DNA of 33,870 bases from Planctomycetota bacterium. GTDB taxonomy: Bacteria; Planctomycetota; Planctomycetia; Planctomycetales; Planctomycetaceae. Of this stretch, positions 5,865 through 29,799 are shown in pieces. The position numbers and the translations under genes are program-made. Position 1 is the first letter of the stretch. Each line of letters opens with the position of its first letter. The DNA lies in the NCBI GenBank assembly GCA_003670925.1, contig QWQG01000179.1, positions 1-33,870 of the forward strand, in the 5' to 3' direction. The notes beneath the pieces were generated by a model, which did no database searches, was not told the DNA's origin, and was given only the letters and a program-made list of their open reading frames with translations.

Positions 5865-5982
5865 TGGACTATTTTCCGCCCCGGATTGCCGACTGTTTTT
5901 CAGTCTCCGTTATTGCATCTGCCAGCATTCCTCGATCAGTCACATTGGGATTGATCGCGCATAGAGAAAGTGATCGTTGCGT

Positions 5983-8847
5983 ATGTCTGAAGTTCTCTCA
6001 AGTCCCGTAATTTCGGGTTCCGCAAAGAAGATTGTGCGGAAAGCCATCGGGCCAAAACTCCGAATTCTGTTTAACGTTGTGCTAGCTTTGTTGGCCGTGA
6101 TTGGAGCCAACAGTACGTACCTCGCGGGTGTGACTTGCCTGCAGTGGTGGACAAAACGCACGTACGAGGATCAATTCTACGCATGGATGTTTTTAGTCCA
6201 CATTGTTGTCGGGTTACTGATCGTGCTGCCGTTCATTGTGTTCGGTCTGATTCACATGCAGAACACAAAAGACCGCAAAATCCGCCGCACCGTGATGATT
6301 GGTTATGCGTTGTTTGCAGTCTGTATTCTGGTCCTGCTTTCCGGTTTCTTGTTGATGCGAATTGAAGGGCTGATTGATCTGAAGAATCCTCTTTCCCGCA
6401 GCGTGATTTATTGGGCACACGTGGGTGGCCCTGTAATCGGTGCGTGGCTCTATTTTATGCACCGTTTGGTCGGCCCGAAGATGCGCTGGAAGCGGGGATT
6501 GGTCTGGGCCGGTCTCGCGGGTGCTACGGCGATTGGTATGATCATGATGCAAGCCCGCGATCCGAGGGACTGGAACACGGTCGGACCGAAAGCGGGGGTC
6601 AAATATTTCGAGCCATCACTTGCCCGGACTGCCACCGGCAACTTCATTTCTGCTGAAATTCTGGACATGAACGACTATTGCCTGAAGTGTCATAAAGACG
6701 CGCACGACGATTGGGAAAAAAGCGCCCACCACTTCAGTTCATTCAACAATTCAGCGTATCTTGCCAGCGTGGCAGAAACTCGCGAAGTTGGTATGAAACG
6801 CGATGGCAACGTTCAAGGTTCGCGGTTCTGCGCGGGATGCCATGACCCCGTGCCGTTCTTCAGTGGAGCCTTCGACGATCCAAAATTTGACATGCTGAAA
6901 CATCCCACGTCGCAGGCGGGAATCACATGTACGGTGTGCCATGCAATCACGCATGTGAACAGCACTCAGGGTAACGCAGACTATACAATTGAGGAGCCCA
7001 TTCATTATCCGTTTGCGACCAGTAAGAATGACATCCTGCAATGGGTAAACAACCAGTTAGTCAAAGCAAAGCCATCATTCCACAAAAAGACGTTTCTAAA
7101 ACCGCTGCACAAGACTGCCGAATTCTGCAGTACATGCCACAAGGTAAACCTGCCATTCACGCTCAATCATTACAAGGAATGGCTCCGCGGACAGAACCAC
7201 TACGACAGTTGGCTATTGAGCGGCGTGTCAGGGCACGGAGCACGCAGTTTTTACTATCCTCCGAAAGCCCAAACGGAGTGTAACGGTTGCCATATGCCGC
7301 TGAAGGAATCAAGCGATTTTGGTGCAAAATACGTGGATGATTCTGGAAAACTCAAGACACACAATCATTTTTTCCCATCCGCGAATACGGGAATTAACTG
7401 GCTTACCAATAATGATTCTGCGATCGAAGCCCACAAAACATTCATGAAGGGCATCATGCGGGTGGATGTCTTTGGAGTTCGGGCGGGGGGCAGCGTTGAA
7501 GGACAACTTACAGCACCGTTAAGACCGGATGTGCCGACACTGAAGCCCGGGCAGAAATATTTGCTGGAGACTGTAATTCGCACGGTCAAAATGGGACATC
7601 ATTTTACGCAGGGCACAACTGATTCCAATGAAATTTGGTTGGAGGTCTCCGTGACGTCGGGTGACCAAAAAATCGGCGGCAGCGGAATGATGCAAGACGA
7701 CAACAGTGTTGATCCATGGTCACATTTCGTCAACAACTTTATGCTGGATAAGAATGGAGATCGCATTGATCGCCGCAATGCTCAGGATATTTTCACGCCG
7801 CTTTATATGCACCAAATACCGCCCGGAGCAGGCCAGACAGTGCACTACAGTTTCACGATGCCGAACGAGGTCACTGCGCCAGTGAACGTCAGGTTACGGC
7901 TGCTGTATCGCAAATTTGACTCAACCTACATGGAATTTGTCGACCAAAAATTGGCGGCGTTGGGGCGACCTATTCGCGGCCACCAAGATGGTCAAAAATA
8001 TCGCAATGAATTGCCCATCATCCTGTTAGCTGAGGATGAGGTGACATTTCCGGTAGAAGGCGTCACGGCAGAGATAACGAACCCTGAGCGTGACGTGCCG
8101 CAATGGCAGCGTTGGAATGATTATGGCATCGGTATGCTGCTCAAGGGGAAAGCTGAACTGAAACAGGCTGCTGCTGCGTTCACGGAACTGGAGAAACTCC
8201 AACGCTTCGACGGTCCGCTCAATTTAGCCCGCGTGCTTGTGGCCGAAGCCGGGCCAGGACAGTTGGACGAAGCTGCGGCGGCGATCACGCGTGCCGCTGA
8301 GTTTAAAGCAAAAGACAATACGCCCCCCCCTTGGACGATGGCGTGGTTAAGCGGCGTGATTAATCGGCAACAGGGACGTCTGGAAGATGCAGAGAAAAAT
8401 TTCCGGCAGGTACTGGAGTATCGCACGGAAGACACGGTGACTCGGAAGTTTGATTTCAGCATGGACTACGAAGTCATCAATCTGCTGGGGCAGACAATTT
8501 TTGACAGAGCCCTACAAATACGTGCTGAATCGAGGGTAGATGAACGCAATGGTCGCTTGCAGGAAGCGGTAGATGTCTTTCAGAAAACCTTGGCGATCGA
8601 TGCGGAAAACGTCGACGCCCACTATAACTTAAGTCAGCTGTATTCTCAGTTAGGGGACAAGGATAGGTCCACCGCACATCAGGCCCTGCACGCGAAGTAC
8701 AAACCAGACGATACGGCTCGTGGTCAAGCAGTGAGTGCAGCCCGCCAAAAATATCCCGCAGCAGATTTTGCTTCTGAGGCGCTAGTAATTTACGACTTGC
8801 AGCGGGACAAACCTGCAGCAGAGGCGGCGTACGAACCCCGGCCATAA
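5983..8847 (+). CDS. Membrane-anchored five-haem cytochrome c with C-terminal TPRs
   Basis: This protein of about 954 residues has three parts. Residues 26-190 hold about four transmembrane helices (LFNVVLALLAVIGA; FLVHIVVGLLIVLPFIVFGL; MIGYALFAVCILVLLSGFLL; GLAGATAIGMIMM), a layout like small cytochrome b-type membrane domains. Five CxxCH haem-c sites follow: CLKCH (about 233), CAGCH (283), CTVCH (316), CSTCH (382) and CNGCH (433). After a beta-rich middle, residues from about 710 form TPR-like helices (AEKNFRQVLEY, AVDVFQKTLAI, DAHYNLSQLYSQLGD). The CxxCH spacing and HxxxxH context resemble the cytochrome c554/nitrite-reductase superfamily. An extracytoplasmic electron-transfer role is likely; donor and acceptor are unknown. 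A TTG at 5977 is an alternative start, but the ATG at 5983 is preferred. The CRTAC1-like gene follows after 86 bp, suggesting one transcript. Confidence 0.88.
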   Translation: MSEVLSSPVISGSAKKIVRKAIGPKLRILFNVVLALLAVIGANSTYLAGVTCLQWWTKRTYEDQFYAWMFLVHIVVGLLIVLPFIVFGLIHMQNTKDRKIRRTVMIGYALFAVCILVLLSGFLLMRIEGLIDLKNPLSRSVIYWAHVGGPVIGAWLYFMHRLVGPKMRWKRGLVWAGLAGATAIGMIMMQARDPRDWNTVGPKAGVKYFEPSLARTATGNFISAEILDMNDYCLKCHKDAHDDWEKSAHHFSSFNNSAYLASVAETREVGMKRDGNVQGSRFCAGCHDPVPFFSGAFDDPKFDMLKHPTSQAGITCTVCHAITHVNSTQGNADYTIEEPIHYPFATSKNDILQWVNNQLVKAKPSFHKKTFLKPLHKTAEFCSTCHKVNLPFTLNHYKEWLRGQNHYDSWLLSGVSGHGARSFYYPPKAQTECNGCHMPLKESSDFGAKYVDDSGKLKTHNHFFPSANTGINWLTNNDSAIEAHKTFMKGIMRVDVFGVRAGGSVEGQLTAPLRPDVPTLKPGQKYLLETVIRTVKMGHHFTQGTTDSNEIWLEVSVTSGDQKIGGSGMMQDDNSVDPWSHFVNNFMLDKNGDRIDRRNAQDIFTPLYMHQIPPGAGQTVHYSFTMPNEVTAPVNVRLRLLYRKFDSTYMEFVDQKLAALGRPIRGHQDGQKYRNELPIILLAEDEVTFPVEGVTAEITNPERDVPQWQRWNDYGIGMLLKGKAELKQAAAAFTELEKLQRFDGPLNLARVLVAEAGPGQLDEAAAAITRAAEFKAKDNTPPPWTMAWLSGVINRQQGRLEDAEKNFRQVLEYRTEDTVTRKFDFSMDYEVINLLGQTIFDRALQIRAESRVDERNGRLQEAVDVFQKTLAIDAENVDAHYNLSQLYSQLGDKDRSTAHQALHAKYKPDDTARGQAVSAARQKYPAADFASEALVIYDLQRDKPAAEAAYEPRP

Positions 8848-8933
8848 AGTCGAGGGTTTTCAATCAGGATTTTGCATGTCGTTTGCGTGGCCCCGGCATT
8901 GAACCAACAGGTTCCCGCGACAATCTGAAAGAT

Positions 8934-10793
8934 ATGAAGATGCACTCCAATTCCAGTCAAGCGGATCCAGATGAAATCCAGAATGACGATGTCGTCGGGT
9001 CTGCTTTACGATGGTCGATCGCAGTGATCGTGTTGTTGACTGTCGCAGGCGTGTCGATTTGGTTGGCGATGCGTCCTGCGGCAGAGCAAGTTGCGACTTC
9101 TGGTGGGGTGACAGTCCTCCCGGTGGCTCGTGCGACACCGACAATGGTGATCCCTGAAATTCCATTCGAAGACATTACCATGTTGGCGGGCATTGATTTC
9201 GTGCATGAGAACGGGGCGGAGGGCGAGAAGTTGCTTCCGGAGACAATGGGAGGTGGCGGCGCGTTTCTGGACTTCGACAACGATGGCGATCAAGACTTAC
9301 TCTGCATCAACTCCAACGTTTGGCCGTGGGCGACAGAAAAGCCTGCCGCAGCACCGACGTCTGCGTTGTACGCGAATGATGGAACTGGCAGATTTACCAA
9401 TGTTACCATCGGCTCGGGCCTCGATGTTCCGCTGTATGGCAACGGGGTCGGTTGCGGCGATTTCAATAACGATGGCAAGGTTGATGTGTTCATCAGTTGT
9501 GTCGGTTCAAATCATCTGTTTCGCAACGAAGGCGGCGGCAAGTTTCGTGATATCACGGAAGAGGCTGGCGTTGCAGGCGGTGAAACTTCTTGGAGCAGCA
9601 GTTGTGGCTGGTTTGACTACGACCTTGATCAAGATCTTGATTTGTTCGTCTGCAATTATATTGAATGGTCGCGAGAAATTGATGCATCGATGGAATTCAC
9701 GCTCGATGGAAAACTGCGTGCCTATGGTCGCCCGACTGACTTTAAGGGTGCATTTCCGTATTTGTACCGGAACGACGGCGACGGAAAATTCACGGACGTC
9801 TCAGAGCCAGCCGGTGTTCAGGTTCGTGATCCAAATACCGGGGTGCCAGCATCCAAATCCCTTGGCGTGACATTTGCCGATGTGAACAGTGACGGGCTTT
9901 GCGACATTGTGGTGGCCAACGACACTGTTCAAAATTTGCTGTTGCTCAATCAACCCGGCGGCACATTTATCGAGAGTGCCGCAACTTCCGGCATTGCGTT
10001 TGACAACAGTGGTGCCGCTCGCGGTGCGATGGGAATTGACTCCGCGTTCTTTCGCAATACCGACGTACTGGGGATCGTAATTGGCAACTTTGCTACCGAG
10101 ATGACTGCATTGTATGTTTGCCAGGCTCCCGGTGCGGCGATTCCCGTGTTCCGCGATGAAGCCGTTTCCAATGGACTTGGGCCGGTGACGCGAACCGACT
10201 TGAAATTTGGCGTGTTGTTTCTCGACGCTGATCTTGATGGAAGAATTGATCTGTTTGAAAACAACGGCCACCTTGAAGAGGATATTCAGGTTGTCCAAGC
10301 GAGTCAGCATTATGCCCAACTCCCCCACCTACTCTGGAACTGTGGCCCTGATTTTGATAGCGAATTTGTGATGCTTCCGGAAGATAAAACCAGTGTCGAT
10401 TTTGTAAAACGCATGGTGGGACGAGGTGCTTCAATGGCAGACATCGACGCGGACGGTGACCTAGATCTGATGCTCTTTTCTTCGGGTGGTCATCCGCGTT
10501 TATTACGCAACCAGCAACAGACGGGAAACCATTGGCTTCGAGTTCGTCTGCATGGTACCAGCAGCAATCACAATGCGATCGGCGCTCAGGTTGATTTGAC
10601 GCTGGCCGACGGCACGGTTCTAATCCGAACAGTGATGCCCACCCGCAGTTATCAGTCGCAGGTAGAATTGCCTGTCACATTTGGCCTTGGCAAAGCAGAC
10701 ACTTATGAATCGCTGAAAATTCACTGGCCCGATGGACTATTGCAGGAACTGCCGGGTGGGGGTGTGAATCGAATGATTGAAGTAACGCAATGA
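8934..10793 (+). CDS. CRTAC1-type FG-GAP/VCBS repeat protein with ASPIC/UnbV domain
   Basis: The protein has about 619 residues. A single hydrophobic helix (LRWSIAVIVLLTVAGVSIWL, about 26-45) acts as an N-terminal anchor. The extracellular part holds repeated calcium-binding FG-GAP/VCBS motifs: DFDNDGDQDLL, DFNNDGKVDVF, DYDLDQDLDLF, DADLDGRIDLF and DIDADGDLDLM, as in beta-propeller proteins. The C-terminal 90 residues (NHWLRVRLHG, NAIGAQVDLTLADG, PTRSYQSQVELPVTFGLG, IHWPDG) are an ASPIC/UnbV domain. The family is often encoded next to multiheme cytochromes and TPR proteins in planctomycetes and acidobacteria, but its role is not settled. The frame is open from a TTG at 8883; the ATG at 8934 with GAAAGA just upstream and the helix in place is preferred. 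It lies 86 bp after the cytochrome gene, so joint function is likely but unproven. Confidence 0.9.
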   Translation: MKMHSNSSQADPDEIQNDDVVGSALRWSIAVIVLLTVAGVSIWLAMRPAAEQVATSGGVTVLPVARATPTMVIPEIPFEDITMLAGIDFVHENGAEGEKLLPETMGGGGAFLDFDNDGDQDLLCINSNVWPWATEKPAAAPTSALYANDGTGRFTNVTIGSGLDVPLYGNGVGCGDFNNDGKVDVFISCVGSNHLFRNEGGGKFRDITEEAGVAGGETSWSSSCGWFDYDLDQDLDLFVCNYIEWSREIDASMEFTLDGKLRAYGRPTDFKGAFPYLYRNDGDGKFTDVSEPAGVQVRDPNTGVPASKSLGVTFADVNSDGLCDIVVANDTVQNLLLLNQPGGTFIESAATSGIAFDNSGAARGAMGIDSAFFRNTDVLGIVIGNFATEMTALYVCQAPGAAIPVFRDEAVSNGLGPVTRTDLKFGVLFLDADLDGRIDLFENNGHLEEDIQVVQASQHYAQLPHLLWNCGPDFDSEFVMLPEDKTSVDFVKRMVGRGASMADIDADGDLDLMLFSSGGHPRLLRNQQQTGNHWLRVRLHGTSSNHNAIGAQVDLTLADGTVLIRTVMPTRSYQSQVELPVTFGLGKADTYESLKIHWPDGLLQELPGGGVNRMIEVTQ

Positions 10794-12572: not shown

Positions 12573-12652
12573 AGCGAGGTTGGCCGGCATGGCATCAAGG
12601 TTGAGCACTTCCTACAATCTGGCTGCCTCGAACTTTTGCCGGAGTTATGAAG

Positions 12653-15073
12653 ATGAAATTCAACCTGTCGCCACTCCTGCTCTCATTCGCGATCACTGCC
12701 ACGCTGATTCCGCTGGATGCCCATGCGCAGGAGCAGCAGGAGCAGCAGCAGCGGTTTGATCAGGATGTGCGTCCAATTCTATCGAATCATTGCTGGAGCT
12801 GTCACGGACCGGATGAAGTTGCCCGTCAGGCTGGGCTGCGGCTCGATCGCCAAGACTCTGCGATGGCCGCAGGTGAAAGTGGTCGCTTCGCTATCGTGCC
12901 TGGGAAACCGGCAGAAAGCGAACTGATCGCTCGCATTCATGCGCACGATCCGGCTCTGCAGATGCCGCCAGCGTCAGCGAAGAAGCCCATCACCGATGCC
13001 CAAAAACTCGTGCTGCAACGATGGATCGAGGAGGGGGCTGAATTCACTTCGCACTGGGCTTATCAGGCGCCTGTTCGTGCGGCGGTTCCGACCGTGCAAA
13101 ACGCCTCGTGGCCAAAGAACACGATTGATGCCTTCGTGCTGCAACACCTAGAAAAGGAAAAGCTGCTGCCGTCAGAAGAAGCCGCTCCACACGTCTGGCT
13201 TCGACGCGTCACTTTTGACTTGACCGGACTTCCACCATCTCTGATGGATCTCAGCGATTTTGAAGATTGTCTCGAGACGACCGAGAAGGAAGGTGTCTAT
13301 GCGGAAGTGGTTGAACGCCTCCTCAAGTCGTCCCGCTATGGCGAGCGGATGGCAATGCAGTGGCTGGATGCTGCCCGCTACGCTGACACAAACGGCTACA
13401 ATAACGATGAAACGCGAACGATGTGGCCGTGGCGGGACTGGGTCATTAAGGCCTATACAGACGGGATGCCGTACGATCAGTTTCTGACCGAACAGTTGGC
13501 AGGAGATCTGCTGCCGGAGGCGTCGGTGTCTCAAAAGGTTGCCACGGGATTCAATCGCAACCATGTGTTGACGACCGAAGGCGGAATCTTTGAAGAAGAA
13601 TATCATGTCGAGTACGTTGCTGACCGCGTCCATACGACGGCAACCGTGTTTTTGGCAATGTCGCTGCAATGCGCGCGGTGTCATGATCATAAATATGATC
13701 CATTGACACAAAAGGAATATTATCAATTCGCCGCGTTCTTCAATAACGTGCCTGACAAAGTTGTGTCGTACAACAAAGCACGAATGGCGGAACCTTTGCT
13801 CCAGTTGCCGACACCCACCCAACAGGTGGCATGGAATCGTATCGAAGGACGTCTGGCGGCAGTAGAAGCTGAACTTGCAAAACTGGCAGGAGAACCTGGT
13901 GCCGATCCAACCTCTTTGCAAGCTGAAAAAACGTCGCTGACCGAACAGCGAACAACGTTACAATCTGAAATACCTGCCACGATGGTGATGGTTGAACCTG
14001 CGGAACCACGCGCCATTTTTGTTTTGAAGCGAGGTCAATACGATCAGCGTGGGGAACAAGTAACGGCCGCATTTCCGAATGCACTGGTGTCACTCGAGAG
14101 TGCGGTGAGCGCGACCGGACCAGAACCCCTTAACCGGTTGCAACTGGCACGTTGGCTGACTGATCCGGCTCATCCCCTGACTGCGCGAGTCGCCGTAAAT
14201 CGCCAGTGGGAAATGTTGTTTGGGATCGGCCTTGTTGAAACTGCTGAAGATTTTGGAATCCAAGGCGCGTTACCAAGTCATCCGGAACTACTTGACTGGC
14301 TAGCCACTGAACTGGTACGTCAGGGCTGGGACCAGAGAGCCATTCTGCAGCAGATTGTCCTGTCTGCGACGTATCGACAGTCATCTAATGTCAATGCAGA
14401 GCAACTTCACCGGGATCCACGAAACCTGTTGCTTGGCCGGGGGCCTCGTTATCGGTTGCCGGCTGAAACCGTCCGCGACAATGCCCTGTTTGTGAGTGGT
14501 CTGTTGCAGGAAAAGCTTGGGGGGCCCAGTGTTAAACCGTATCAACCCGCAGGACTTTGGGAAGACGTCAGCGTCGAGCGTCGCGATAAGTATGTGGCGG
14601 ACACTGATGACGGACTGTATCGACGCAGTATGTACACATTCTGGAAACGCACTTGCCCACCACCTAGCATGGCGACTTTTGACGCTCCTGATCGAGAAAC
14701 TTGCACCGTCCGCCGAGCGCGCACAAATACACCGCTGCAGGCGCTCATCCTGCTCAATGACCCGACCTATGTTGAGGCCGCACGCAAGGTGGCTGAGCGT
14801 GTCCTGTTGGCATCCGATAGTGACGAGGCCCGCATTGGACTGGCATTCCGGATCGTACTGTCGCGGCTACCAAGTGATTCAGAACAGGAGATCCTGCAGG
14901 AAATCTTGGACGACGCCCGCATCCACTTTACAAGTCACTCCACGGCTTCCGCGGAGTTTCTGAGCATCGGAAATGCACCGACCGACACGACGCTCAACCC
15001 GCTTGATCTCGCGGCCTGGTCGGCGGTCATGAGCGTGGTCATGAATCTCGATGAGTGCATCTCAAAACTGTGA
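12653..15073 (+). CDS. Planctomycete cytochrome (PSCyt1)-DUF1549 (PSCyt2)-DUF1553 (PSD1) protein
   Basis: The protein has about 806 residues and a signal peptide (LSPLLLSFAITATLIPLDAHA). PSCyt1 follows with one haem-c site in HCWSCHGPDE and a likely distal ligand region (LQMPPASAKKP). DUF1549 covers about 150-375 (VTFDLTGLPPSLMDL, MAMQWLDAARYADTNGY, QCARCHDHKYDP, which adds a second CxxCH). A short coiled coil (about 385-435) precedes DUF1553 (LARWLTDPAHPLTARVAVNR, SATYRQSS, NTPLQALILLNDPTYVEAAR). The ending AAWSAVMSVVMNLDECISKL is the normal family end, so it is full length. These abundant planctomycete proteins are exported and thought to act in polymer breakdown or redox chemistry; none of that is shown here. 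Two ATGs lie close together (12647, 12653); GGAG at 12641 is correctly spaced only for the second. The usual DUF1501 partner is absent downstream. Confidence 0.95.
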   Translation: MKFNLSPLLLSFAITATLIPLDAHAQEQQEQQQRFDQDVRPILSNHCWSCHGPDEVARQAGLRLDRQDSAMAAGESGRFAIVPGKPAESELIARIHAHDPALQMPPASAKKPITDAQKLVLQRWIEEGAEFTSHWAYQAPVRAAVPTVQNASWPKNTIDAFVLQHLEKEKLLPSEEAAPHVWLRRVTFDLTGLPPSLMDLSDFEDCLETTEKEGVYAEVVERLLKSSRYGERMAMQWLDAARYADTNGYNNDETRTMWPWRDWVIKAYTDGMPYDQFLTEQLAGDLLPEASVSQKVATGFNRNHVLTTEGGIFEEEYHVEYVADRVHTTATVFLAMSLQCARCHDHKYDPLTQKEYYQFAAFFNNVPDKVVSYNKARMAEPLLQLPTPTQQVAWNRIEGRLAAVEAELAKLAGEPGADPTSLQAEKTSLTEQRTTLQSEIPATMVMVEPAEPRAIFVLKRGQYDQRGEQVTAAFPNALVSLESAVSATGPEPLNRLQLARWLTDPAHPLTARVAVNRQWEMLFGIGLVETAEDFGIQGALPSHPELLDWLATELVRQGWDQRAILQQIVLSATYRQSSNVNAEQLHRDPRNLLLGRGPRYRLPAETVRDNALFVSGLLQEKLGGPSVKPYQPAGLWEDVSVERRDKYVADTDDGLYRRSMYTFWKRTCPPPSMATFDAPDRETCTVRRARTNTPLQALILLNDPTYVEAARKVAERVLLASDSDEARIGLAFRIVLSRLPSDSEQEILQEILDDARIHFTSHSTASAEFLSIGNAPTDTTLNPLDLAAWSAVMSVVMNLDECISKL

Positions 15074-21426: not shown

Positions 21427-23133
21427 ATGACGCAGGTTCCTGCTGCTTATCGACTACGTGCTTTTGCTGCCACTTTTTTTCGACGCAGTATTAATCACTC
21501 TCGGAATGAACTCCTCAACCTCGCGCAATCAGCGTGTCGTGAAACGCAATGCACGCTACTCGCAGATCTCCTGCGGCTGAATCAGTCGTCCGCATTTTCC
21601 CGCGACTACGGTTTAACCGGGCGAACGACCTTGCGTGAATTTCGTCAACGCGTGCCTGTCGGCGACTATGAACTCATCCGCAGTTACGTGGATCAGGTCG
21701 CCCACGGGAATCATGCAGCGCTCCTAGGGGAAACGAACAAGTTGCAGATGTTTGCCTTAACCAGTGGTACCACTGCCGCGCCCAAACTGATCCCTGTCAC
21801 AACCCGTTTTCTGAATGATTATCGCCGCGGTTGGCAAACATGGGGAATCGGAACATACTCCGATCACGCGTTGCTGCAGAAACTGAATATCGTGCAGATT
21901 TCCAGTAGCCATCAGAAAACGCGGACCGCTGACGGAACACCATGCGGCAACATCAGTGGTCTGGTCGCCGCCATGCAAAAGCGTTTTGTGCGATCGCTGT
22001 ACACCATTCCTGCTGTTGTGGCAGAAATTCTCGATGCGGAAGCCAAGCGGTACACAATCCTTCGCTTGGCTCTTGCAGATCCGTGGGTGGGCATGACAAT
22101 CACCGCCAATCCTAGTACGTTGCTGCAGCTCGCGGGATTCGCAAACACGCATGCTGAAGCATTGATTCGCGATATTCACAACGGTGGAATCAACGGTGTC
22201 GATCTGCCTGACTTGCAACGACGCGAGCTTAAAAATCGCCTGCGGCCAAACGTTCCCCGTGCTGCTCAATTGCAGCAAATCTTGGATCGGCACGGCGGAC
22301 TGCGTCCTCGCGAATGCTGGCCGATGCTCCAAGCACTCGGCGTGTGGTGTGGCGGAAGTGCTGCCGCCTATATTCCAAAACTTAAGCAAGTCTTCGATGG
22401 GATCACGATTCGTGATCATGGACTCCACGCCAGTGAAGGGCGGATGACGTTACCTTTGATGGATGAATGTTCGTCGGGGTTGCTTGAGATTCAAACTCAT
22501 TTTTTTGAATTTCTGCCGATGACTGAAGTTGGATCGGCAAGTCCCGTCGTTCTAGAAGCACATGAACTTGAGGTAGGCGTCGAGTACTATATTTTGCTGA
22601 CGACAAGTTCGGGACTGTATCGTTACAACATTCGCGACGTGGTGCGTTGTACGGGATTTTATGGAACAACTCCGCTCCTCGAATTTCGGCACAAGGGCGC
22701 ACATATCTCAAGTATCACTGGGGAGAAACTTGCGGAATCGCAAGTGGTGGAAGCGGTGAACGCTGCTGTCCGGGAGTGTGGCGTCAATCTCGAGTTATTC
22801 ACCTTGACTCCCCAGTGGGGCGAACCACCCGGCTATAAACTCTGCGTGCAGTGTGATTCCGCCGACGCCGGACACAATCCTGCACGATTGAATCGATTTG
22901 CGATGGTCGTGGAAGAGCATCTTGCTCGCCTCAACGTTGAATATAAAGACAAGCGAGAATCCGGCAGATTGGCCCCGCTTTACGTGCAGGCATTACAGCA
23001 AGAGCATTGGGACGCATTTACAAAAAATCGCCAATCCCGAAGCGGTGGCAGTCTCGAACAGTACAAACACCCTTGCCTGTTGCCGGACCCGGAGTTCCAG
23101 AATCTATTCGGTTGCACGCCGGAGACGCTGTGA
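21427..23133 (+). CDS. GH3-family acyl-adenylase-like protein
   Basis: The 568-residue protein belongs to the GH3 family, known mainly from plant auxin/jasmonate-amino acid synthetases. It has the ATP-binding loop LTSGTTAAPKLIP (TSGTT at 112-116), the motif HGLHASEGRMTLP (HASEG 334-338), GLYRYNIRDVVRCTGF (about 396-411) and SSITGEKLAESQ (about 428-439), which line up with the three ANL-type motifs of GH3 enzymes. It should activate a carboxylic acid as an acyl-AMP and may pass it to an amine; the acceptor is unknown. There is no signal or membrane segment. It lies 150 bp after the small basic protein's terminator, so it has its own promoter. The next gene is a cell-wall enzyme 215 bp on, with no obvious link. 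Confidence 0.9.
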   Translation: MTQVPAAYRLRAFAATFFRRSINHSRNELLNLAQSACRETQCTLLADLLRLNQSSAFSRDYGLTGRTTLREFRQRVPVGDYELIRSYVDQVAHGNHAALLGETNKLQMFALTSGTTAAPKLIPVTTRFLNDYRRGWQTWGIGTYSDHALLQKLNIVQISSSHQKTRTADGTPCGNISGLVAAMQKRFVRSLYTIPAVVAEILDAEAKRYTILRLALADPWVGMTITANPSTLLQLAGFANTHAEALIRDIHNGGINGVDLPDLQRRELKNRLRPNVPRAAQLQQILDRHGGLRPRECWPMLQALGVWCGGSAAAYIPKLKQVFDGITIRDHGLHASEGRMTLPLMDECSSGLLEIQTHFFEFLPMTEVGSASPVVLEAHELEVGVEYYILLTTSSGLYRYNIRDVVRCTGFYGTTPLLEFRHKGAHISSITGEKLAESQVVEAVNAAVRECGVNLELFTLTPQWGEPPGYKLCVQCDSADAGHNPARLNRFAMVVEEHLARLNVEYKDKRESGRLAPLYVQALQQEHWDAFTKNRQSRSGGSLEQYKHPCLLPDPEFQNLFGCTPETL

Positions 23134-27846: not shown

Positions 27847-29799
27847 ATGAAACCCTCTATCATGCAATCAGCTTCAGAGTCTGGCGTGACATCGACGCAA
27901 CTGCGGCCGTTGTTACTCGGGACGGCAGGGCATATTGACCACGGCAAGACGACGCTCGTGTATCGCCTTACGGGAACCAATACCGACCGCCTTCCGGAAG
28001 AAAAGGCACGTGGCATATCGATCGATTTGGGATTCGCGCATTTCGATGCTGCGACTTTTCGATTTGGAGTGGTCGATGTCCCGGGGCATGAACGCTTCAT
28101 TCGTCAAATGGTTGCCGGTGCTGCGAATATTGATATCGCTGTGCTGGTGGTTGCGGGAGACGACGGTGTGATGCCACAAACACAGGAACATCTGGATATC
28201 TTGCAATTACTGGGTGTGCAGTATGGAGTCATCGTCATCACCCGCTGCGATCTGATTGATGCAGAAATGCGGGAACTCGTAGCAGAAGAACTCCGCGAAG
28301 TTGTCGCAGGGACGTTTCTGGAGTCCGCTCCAATTTTGCCCGTGTCGGGGCTCACGGGCGCGGGGATCGAAGACTTAAAACAGGCATTGTGTCGGGTGGC
28401 TGCAGAGATTCCAGATCGCCGCCATGTGGCTGTGTTCCGGCTCCCGGTCGATCGGGTGTTTTCACTTGCCGGACGTGGCACTGTAGTGACCGGATCCGTA
28501 CTGTCTGGCAGTGTGTCGGCCGGTGATGAAGTGGAACTGTTGCCCGCACAGCGTCGCCTGCGAGTTCGCGGTGTACAGCATCATGGACAAAATGTCCCAC
28601 AGGCCGACGCGCACCGTAGAGCGGCCATCAATCTGGCAGGTGTTGCCGTTTCGGAAATTCAACGAGGCGACGAATTGGCGACACCGGGCGTCTTCACACC
28701 GACGACTCGTGTGCTTGCGGAGATTGCATGTTTGAGTACTGCGAAGAAACCGCTGCGACATCGTCAGGTGTTGACGCTACACGCAGGAACCACGACTGTG
28801 ACCGTGCGTCTGCGGTTGACACAAACACTGCTGCTGCCGGGAGAAAAAACCTATGCCGATCTTCGTTTGAAAGAATCGATTGTGCTGGCGTGGGGGCAGC
28901 GATTCATCCTGCGTTCCTCGTCGTCTCAGACTGTTGGTGGCGGACGAGTGGTGGACGGATTGCCGGGACGCCGTCGCGTCCGCAATCTACAATATCGCTG
29001 TTCTGGTGCGGGAGATGCACTGGAGGAAACTCGGATTGCCAGCTTACTCGAGCAGCAACCCTCGGTCTCAGATAGTGATGCAGTGCAGCGTCTCGGATTA
29101 TCAATTGTTGACGCAACTGAAACACTGCGATCCATGACTACCGGGAAACCGGTGAATGTGATCCACGACCCCGCGTCCGGGCATTGGATTTCGAAACACT
29201 GGCTGCGGCGACTGGGGATGAGTCTGCTGCGTATGCTCAGGGAAGAAATAAAACGACAAAGTCCACGCAGACTTTTGCCACGCGCCTTAGTAACGTCTCA
29301 GTGCCGAAGTTTTGACGGGGCTATCCACGTCCCGCTGGCTATCGACGCACTCGTCAAATCGGGAGAACTTATCCAACGCGGCGATCTGATCGGCCTTGCC
29401 GATCAGCAGGTTTCGCTAACGAAACGCCAGCGCGAAGTTCTTGATCTTCTGCTTCCGATGATCGCCGCCAACGAACGCACACCTCCAACCCATCGGGAAC
29501 TTTACGCCGCGACGGATCGTATGAATCCCAGTGATATCGAGCAGTTGCTGAAACTATGTATCGAAGACGGAAGTCTGATTGCCGTGAGTCAAGATCTTTC
29601 TTGGACACCGACCGGCCTCGAACTTCTCCGCACCGGATTGCGGGAGCTTTTTCAGATCAAGCCTGAAGTCACACTTGCCGAAATCCGCGATGCCTTGCGC
29701 ATGACACGCAAACATGTCGTGCCATTGGCTGAATACTGGGACGCTCACAAACTCACAATTCGCAACGGCGATGTCAGGACCGCCGGGCCAGAGTTGTGA
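27847..29799 (+). CDS. selB: Selenocysteine-specific translation elongation factor SelB
   Basis: The 650-residue protein has an EF-Tu-like GTPase domain (G1 GTAGHIDHGKTTL at about 25-37, G2 region EEKARGISIDLGFAHF, G3 DVPGHERFIRQMVAGA, G4 TRCD at about 132-135). The EARGISID pattern in place of the EF-Tu RGITI motif is typical of SelB. Domains 2 and 3 follow (VFSLAGRGTVVTGSV, VRGVQHHG). The last 250 residues are the winged-helix domains that bind SECIS RNA (LTKRQREVLDLLLPMI, RMTRKHVVPLAEYWD, RNGDVR). SelB delivers Sec-tRNA to UGA codons with a downstream SECIS. selA, selD and tRNA-Sec are not here, so they must lie elsewhere. The G4 motif has Arg in place of Lys (TRCD, not T/NKxD). Confidence 0.96.
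   Translation: MKPSIMQSASESGVTSTQLRPLLLGTAGHIDHGKTTLVYRLTGTNTDRLPEEKARGISIDLGFAHFDAATFRFGVVDVPGHERFIRQMVAGAANIDIAVLVVAGDDGVMPQTQEHLDILQLLGVQYGVIVITRCDLIDAEMRELVAEELREVVAGTFLESAPILPVSGLTGAGIEDLKQALCRVAAEIPDRRHVAVFRLPVDRVFSLAGRGTVVTGSVLSGSVSAGDEVELLPAQRRLRVRGVQHHGQNVPQADAHRRAAINLAGVAVSEIQRGDELATPGVFTPTTRVLAEIACLSTAKKPLRHRQVLTLHAGTTTVTVRLRLTQTLLLPGEKTYADLRLKESIVLAWGQRFILRSSSSQTVGGGRVVDGLPGRRRVRNLQYRCSGAGDALEETRIASLLEQQPSVSDSDAVQRLGLSIVDATETLRSMTTGKPVNVIHDPASGHWISKHWLRRLGMSLLRMLREEIKRQSPRRLLPRALVTSQCRSFDGAIHVPLAIDALVKSGELIQRGDLIGLADQQVSLTKRQREVLDLLLPMIAANERTPPTHRELYAATDRMNPSDIEQLLKLCIEDGSLIAVSQDLSWTPTGLELLRTGLRELFQIKPEVTLAEIRDALRMTRKHVVPLAEYWDAHKLTIRNGDVRTAGPEL

Follow-up and report, generated by a model that had tools for sequence, protein, structure and literature searches.

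The locus and the fusion protein

The present study concerns a multidomain cytochrome gene and its downstream neighbor in contig QWQG01000179.1 of a Planctomycetota bacterium (assembly GCA_003670925.1); the window is the whole stretch considered, positions 1 to 33,870 of the forward strand. The open reading frame (ORF) at 5983–8847 on the plus strand runs through 954 codons from an ATG at 5983 with no internal stop, and a TTG lies in frame at 5977, two codons ahead of that start. Its product is probably the core of a quinone-linked, membrane-bound dihaem-b/pentahaem-c oxidoreductase with a CRTAC1-like protein as a further subunit. The features on which this reading rests are as follows.

5983–8847, plus strand: fusion protein of 954 amino acids with a membrane dihaem-b-like domain, a pentahaem c domain, a beta-sandwich and a tetratricopeptide repeat (TPR) tail (ORF, Pfam, homologues)
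6052–6555, plus strand: five-helix membrane domain, residues 24–191 (AlphaFold2, mean predicted local distance difference test (pLDDT) 80.6; structural second look)
6199–6462, plus strand: span of four membrane histidines, H73 and H91 on helix 2 and H146 and H160 on helix 4, candidate axial ligands of two b haems (conservation)
6679–6693, plus strand: haem c site 1, CLKCH, residue 233 (CX2CH in 133/179 rows, CX4CH in 46/179)
6829–6843, plus strand: haem c site 2, CAGCH, residue 283 (179/179 rows)
6928–6942, plus strand: haem c site 3, CTVCH, residue 316 (179/179 rows)
7126–7140, plus strand: haem c site 4, CSTCH, residue 382 (178/179 rows)
7279–7293, plus strand: haem c site 5, CNGCH, residue 433 (CX2CH in 177/179 rows, one CX3CH, one CX4CH)
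7456–8049, plus strand: beta-sandwich, about residues 492–689, with invariant H539 in a GHxFxxG motif (AlphaFold2 strands, match to PDB entry 5ze8, H539 in 178/178)
8113–8844, plus strand: TPR tail, residues 711–954, presumably periplasmic (Pfam TPR models, TPR_11 in 14/16 members, substitution pattern)
8883–10793, plus strand: partner gene with FG-GAP repeats and an ASPIC/UnbV domain, CRTAC1-like (TTG start, alternative ATG at 8934; Pfam)

The fusion is old and real. Among 178 aligned homologues (179 rows with the window protein; two ORFs over 1250 amino acids, L087 and L149, were left out), 177 keep all five haem c sites, counted by aligned C, C and H columns so that longer spacings are included, and 140 have a TPR-length tail. 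A first-pass annotation of this stretch had already remarked on the joining of a redox module and an interaction module in a single chain; that joining is real and conserved, and the annotation's word “unusual” suits the searchable literature but not nature. It did not note the partner gene, the four histidines of the membrane part or the resemblance to known pentahaem cytochromes.

Haem c and beta domains

The five CxxCH sites lie exactly at the residues first proposed for them, and in 2000 shuffled versions of the protein such motifs numbered 0.0065 on average and never more than 1. Pfam Cytochrome_C554 (PF13435) covers residues 233–320 at 35.4 bits (cut-off 20.8) and matches all 16 of a smaller set of aligned members, window included. 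The AlphaFold2 model of residues 205–712 has a mean pLDDT of 62.8; its haem half is poor, with most 10-residue blocks below 60, and its beta half is better, the strands of the sandwich being mostly of high pLDDT. With this model Foldseek ranked cytochrome c552 (5ze8) first at E 5.8e-8, VIA placed the same structure first at Z 12.3 (317 aligned residues, root-mean-square deviation 4.8, model residues 19–485) with the next row at 7.6, and a sequence profile search found it at E 2.8e-5. In a distant homologue the GHxFPxG at the H539 site aligns with HxxPxG of 5ze8, a stretch that by itself scores 0.9 bits.

Beyond the histidines of the CxxCH motifs only four are invariant, at 249, 367, 462 and 539 (178/178 homologues), so that at least one c haem is without a universally conserved histidine as second ligand. 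NapC/NirT-type anchoring was considered and rejected; PF03264 matched the haem-beta part weakly in 4 of the 16 members.

The membrane domain and its histidines

Where four membrane helices had been proposed, the AlphaFold2 model built on an alignment of 16 sequences has five, at residues 24–57, 64–95, 101–123, 136–162 and 169–191. A 19-residue hydropathy window (mean at least 1.4) shows only four because helix 136–162, which carries two of the conserved histidines, escapes it. Positively charged residues at the N-terminus and just behind helices 2 and 4 suggest a cytoplasmic N-terminus with the haem domain outside, in which case H73 and H146 would lie on the outer and H91 and H160 on the inner side of the membrane domain.

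All four histidines are kept in 149 of the 178 aligned homologues, and wherever residues align at positions 73 and 146, as they do in 166, both are histidine. The inner pair, H91 and H160, has been lost together in 10 homologues (in one of them through a gap at 91) with H73 and H146 kept, compared with loss of only H91 in 3 and only H160 in 4. Such joint loss (Fisher p about 8e-11, uncorrected for relatedness) is as expected for a bis-histidine haem site in which 91 pairs with 160. The homologues concerned are L018, L163, L167, L168, L169, L171–L175, L177, L178 and L180–L184, and all retain the outer pair. Eleven further homologues (L164–L166, L170, L176, L179, L185, L186, L190, L191 and L196) have no comparable membrane domain; 8 of these are without an adjoining partner gene and L164–L166 keep it.

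In a structural second look with VIA-align, haem-b-type proteins and a designed dihaem bundle filled 19 of the top 20 rows at Z 10.4 to 8.4, including hydrogenase-1 cytochrome b (10.4), b6f (10.3), superoxide oxidase (10.1), FdnI (9.6), NOX5 (8.9) and bc1 (8.6). By sequence, the 16 aligned members gave a single PF01292 match at E 0.033, and one of four TPR-less homologues gave PF14358, PF01292 and PF03188, all below cut-off. Searching PDB sequences with a profile of the membrane part returned chance matches only. Pfam EXPERA, Rhomboid and DUF7139 on this part were below cut-off in the window protein and present in 2 of the 16 members each, and were set aside as helix noise.

The TPR tail

The TPR-like C-terminal end of the earlier description is borne out by TPR_11, TPR_19 and TPR_8, all above cut-off at residues 856–919, with weaker TPR models at 759–820; TPR_11 matches 14 of the 16 aligned members, window included, at E ≤ 0.01. 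Compared with its counterpart in L004 the tail differs at 23, 12 and 99 first, second and third codon positions, with a nonsynonymous rate (dN) of 0.057 and a synonymous rate (dS) of 1.449, and against four relatives the third-position bias in the tail is as in the other three parts of the protein; dS was saturated and not computable in most of the other comparisons. The tail is in frame, and by this substitution pattern it looks neither separately translated nor decaying.

Of the 178 homologues, 140 have tails longer than 150 residues, 34 are without TPR and 4 are truncated or short. The 30 TPR-less copies with a near-full partner group as a single clade in the cytochrome tree and again, all 30, as a single clade in the partner tree, suggesting that one gain or loss separates the two forms in the sample.

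The CRTAC1-like partner

The predicted product of the downstream gene is without CxxCH; it has six DxDxDG-like motifs and a single hydrophobic segment at its N-terminus. Its Pfam matches to PF07593 (66.3 bits) and PF13517 (102.3 bits) are above cut-off, and human CRTAC1 (PDB 9etn) is its sole good PDB relative at 62.6 bits. For the partner count, ORFs under 600 amino acids were dropped (L105 kept), as were duplicates with identical last 200 residues, leaving 180 homologues. Among the 164 of these with at least 1400 bases downstream, a partner-type gene is next downstream on the same strand in 135: 71 of 79 close, 32 of 43 mid and 32 of 42 distant homologues. It stands upstream in 11 of the 114 with room there. 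The 5.78-Mb source genome has 13 PF07593 matches, the partner included, a number at which chance adjacency would be rare; four of the 13 are on contig C171 and three on C206.

The two proteins also diverge together. For 127 pairs (ASPIC matches under 450 amino acids left out) the tree distances of cytochrome and partner correlate at 0.88, which none of 999 permutations reached, shared ancestry being uncorrected. In 16 of 16 genomes found to hold both TPR and TPR-less copies with partners, one copy tested per genome, the partner of the TPR-less copy was nearest to the partner of another TPR-less copy, so the partner follows the paralogue rather than the genome. Fusion of cytochrome and partner in one ORF was found in none of the ORFs of the loci examined.

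The TPR tail is dispensable for this pairing: the partner is kept by 31 of 33 TPR-less homologues versus 102 of 128 with TPR. The idea that the tail recruits the ASPIC protein was therefore dropped, though the tail may serve as a scaffold for a third protein. The scaffolded redox complex of the first-pass annotation is half supported: the frequent partner gene argues for a complex, and the TPR-less homologues that keep their partner show that this pairing does not require the tail.

Distribution

The source genome, a 259-contig assembly, has one copy of the cytochrome gene. Among 59 genomes of relatives (its own included) 48 have a match at E ≤ 0.001 and 42 at E ≤ 1e-100. Wider searches found matches in at least 72 of 246 genomes of the phylum at E ≤ 1e-30 and, at E ≤ 1e-25, in at least 6 of 229 genomes of the class of the L017 genome (Gammaproteobacteria) and at least 59 of 199 of the phylum of the L018 genome (Candidatus Sulfotelmatobacter, which we take to be an acidobacterium); these phylum and class counts are lower bounds because only the best 3 or 4 candidates per genome were scored. 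All distribution counts include distant, partial and TPR-less matches. Homologues L004, L005, L013 and L020 come from records titled Candidatus Kuenenia stuttgartiensis, a species label that looks doubtful; the L004 homologue is 91% identical to the window protein, and an identical sequence occurs in a genome listed under the genus of the source genome itself (L022).

Proposed function and alternatives

In the arrangement that we favor, the N-terminus would be cytoplasmic and the helices would hold two b haems, one ligated by H73 and H146 near the periplasmic face and one by H91 and H160 near the cytoplasmic face. The chain would emerge from the membrane into the periplasm; there its five c haems, of the pentahaem cytochrome (PHC) type, may pass electrons between these b haems and either a redox partner or a substrate, with the beta domain packed against the haem domain and the TPR tail perhaps docking a further protein. 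The usual second subunit would be the CRTAC1-like propeller, with its own anchor in that membrane. The favored direction of electrons is from quinol to an acceptor. The domain layout and its conservation, and the adjacency and co-divergence of the partner, are direct observations; haem b binding, quinone contact, electron direction, topology, the role of the TPR and a physical complex are inferred from them. A sole complex III role was dropped, as the genome has two matches to bc1-type cytochrome b and one to COX1; with these present and NrfD absent (PF03916 had no match in the source genome, which is 99.5% complete), the cytochrome would add a branch beside the main chain rather than replace it.

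Several observations weigh against the proposed oxidoreductase. The partner is not next door in 29 of 164 homologues (8 of 79 close, 11 of 43 mid, 10 of 42 distant), and H73 and H146 fall in gaps in 12 of 178. Nine of the 12 are also without a partner gene, and among the nine is L162, which starts at a contig end. All 17 losses of inner histidines are within the one phylum of L018, and both the tree and the histidine tests are uncorrected for shared ancestry. On the membrane model, Foldseek alone gave zero matches at E ≤ 0.001, no Pfam cytochrome b family was above cut-off in the window protein, the 16 aligned members or four TPR-less homologues, and the remaining row of the VIA-align top 20 was a designed PARP-inhibitor binder at Z 8.8, with unrelated helical proteins from rank 17 on. 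A Z near 10 can be reached by unrelated helical bundles, so that the weight rests on the fold matches combined with the four histidines. The H73–H91 spacing of 18 exceeds the 13–14 known for bc1, and the presence of bc1-type cytochrome b and COX1 means that a complex III role is not needed.

One alternative is that the protein is an enzyme rather than a relay, in which a c haem lacking a distal histidine converts a small periplasmic molecule and is fed by the membrane part. This fits the finding of only four extra invariant histidines for five c haems, and passages of PMC11976967 group sPHC and lPHC with cytochromes having one or more pentacoordinated haems. It is nonetheless rather unlikely: AlphaFold2 modelled the haem half poorly and without haems, and in each lineage the missing ligand could be a His, Met or Lys that is less conserved. 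A component of extracellular electron transfer, with electrons exported by a pentahaem core that is related to ExtKL and, as has been suggested in print, to the archaeal nanowire AvECN, would be in keeping with weak matches to the ExtKL model and MccSep beside the clear match to 5ze8, and with the links drawn among PHC, ExtKL, c552 and AvECN in PMC11976967. We consider it improbable, since the protein is bound to a five-helix membrane domain with the TPR following the beta domain, the score to the ExtKL model (NF040886) is 23.4 against a cut-off of 250 bits, and the 19 window ORFs scanned with Pfam, a part of the window's ORFs, include no porin and no other multihaem cytochrome.

A role in assembly or sensing, in which TPR and propeller recruit clients and the haems sense redox state, appears very improbable. 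TPR domains do serve cytochrome c maturation (CcmH, NrfG), and TPR_CcmH_CycH was found in one of the 16 aligned members at 1.5e-10 (the window protein reaches only 0.022), but TPR-less homologues retain the other domains, 31 of 33 retain the partner, and there is no ccm gene among the 19 scanned window ORFs. Fusion of neighboring genes by an assembly or annotation artefact might be raised for a genome in 259 contigs; it is refuted for practical purposes because the domain order is conserved across homologues, the same parts recurring in a single frame; 140 of 178 non-redundant homologues, among them that of Rhodopirellula sp. JC639 (L006), have a TPR-length tail.

The oxidoreductase reading, if true, would add a branch to the respiratory chain in planctomycetes and acidobacteria that domain searches see only as a c554-type match and TPRs. 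A widespread cytochrome family gains a testable architecture, in which five c haems and a beta domain are joined by what are likely to be two b haems and the partner is named, and FG-GAP/ASPIC-UnbV proteins gain a functional lead, at least one subfamily of them traveling and co-diverging with a redox protein. It is conceivable, and we put it forward tentatively, that these proteins make up an undescribed class of quinone-linked complexes in Planctomycetota, Acidobacteriota and some Gammaproteobacteria, in which the dihaem-b/pentahaem-c fusion works with a substrate-binding, Ca-binding CRTAC1-like propeller and which occurs in TPR, non-TPR and periplasmic-side-b-haem-only forms.

Other features of the window

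Two genes downstream of the partner, a planctomycete-type protein with PSCyt1, DUF1549 and DUF1553 is encoded at 12647–15073; in the neighborhood table, matches to it stand near the cytochrome-partner pair only in L003, L072 and L084. A GH3-family protein, presumably of the plant auxin-conjugating type, is encoded at 21427–23133 with all three GH3 domains well above cut-off. At 27847–29799 there is a gene for a SelB-like selenocysteine elongation factor; selenoproteins are among the proteins covered by the ExtKL model, but the gene at 5983–8847 has no in-frame TGA. Rfam gave no match within the window.

Comparison with known systems

Alternative complex III pairs a membrane quinol site with the pentahaem cytochrome ActA and has NrfD-like subunits; the likeness is in the membrane quinol site plus pentahaem cytochrome, and identity with that complex was rejected because the genome has no NrfD match. 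Dihaem cytochromes b (b6f/bc1, FdnI, hydrogenase cytochrome b and E. coli superoxide oxidase) share with the membrane domain a helical bundle, histidines on two helices and Z of 8–10; they differ in that the window protein has no above-cut-off sequence match to them, a fifth helix that lies outside most alignments, and a pentahaem c fusion. Human CRTAC1 (9etn) is related to the partner protein at 62.6 bits, and we know of no cytochrome link for it.

The closest likenesses are to pentahaem cytochromes. Cytochrome c552 of Thermochromatium tepidum (5ze8) likewise carries five c haems ahead of a beta domain with HxxPxG, but its 435-residue chain aligns with the haem and beta part only and leaves no room for a membrane domain or TPR tail. 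The PHC family of cable bacteria and Geobacter (ExtKL, Gsu2801, sPHC and lPHC) combines a pentahaem region with an Ig-like domain, can be fused with extra domains such as a truncated haemoglobin, and has been linked, together with ExtKL and c552, to the archaeal nanowire AvECN, a connection that has the standing of a published suggestion (passages of PMC11976967). In those passages its members are soluble extracytoplasmic cytochromes, with no mention of a cytochrome b domain in the membrane, of TPRs or of a CRTAC1-like partner; ExtKL itself (NF040886) is set apart by the 23.4 bits of the window protein. No description of such a cytochrome with a membrane dihaem-b-like domain, a TPR tail and a CRTAC1-like partner was found in searches of open-licence PMC papers. 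The pentahaem-Ig core is already known, and with its five CxxCH sites, c554-type region and c552 fold the pentahaem and beta part of the window protein belongs, on the evidence of the model, with the published PHC family.

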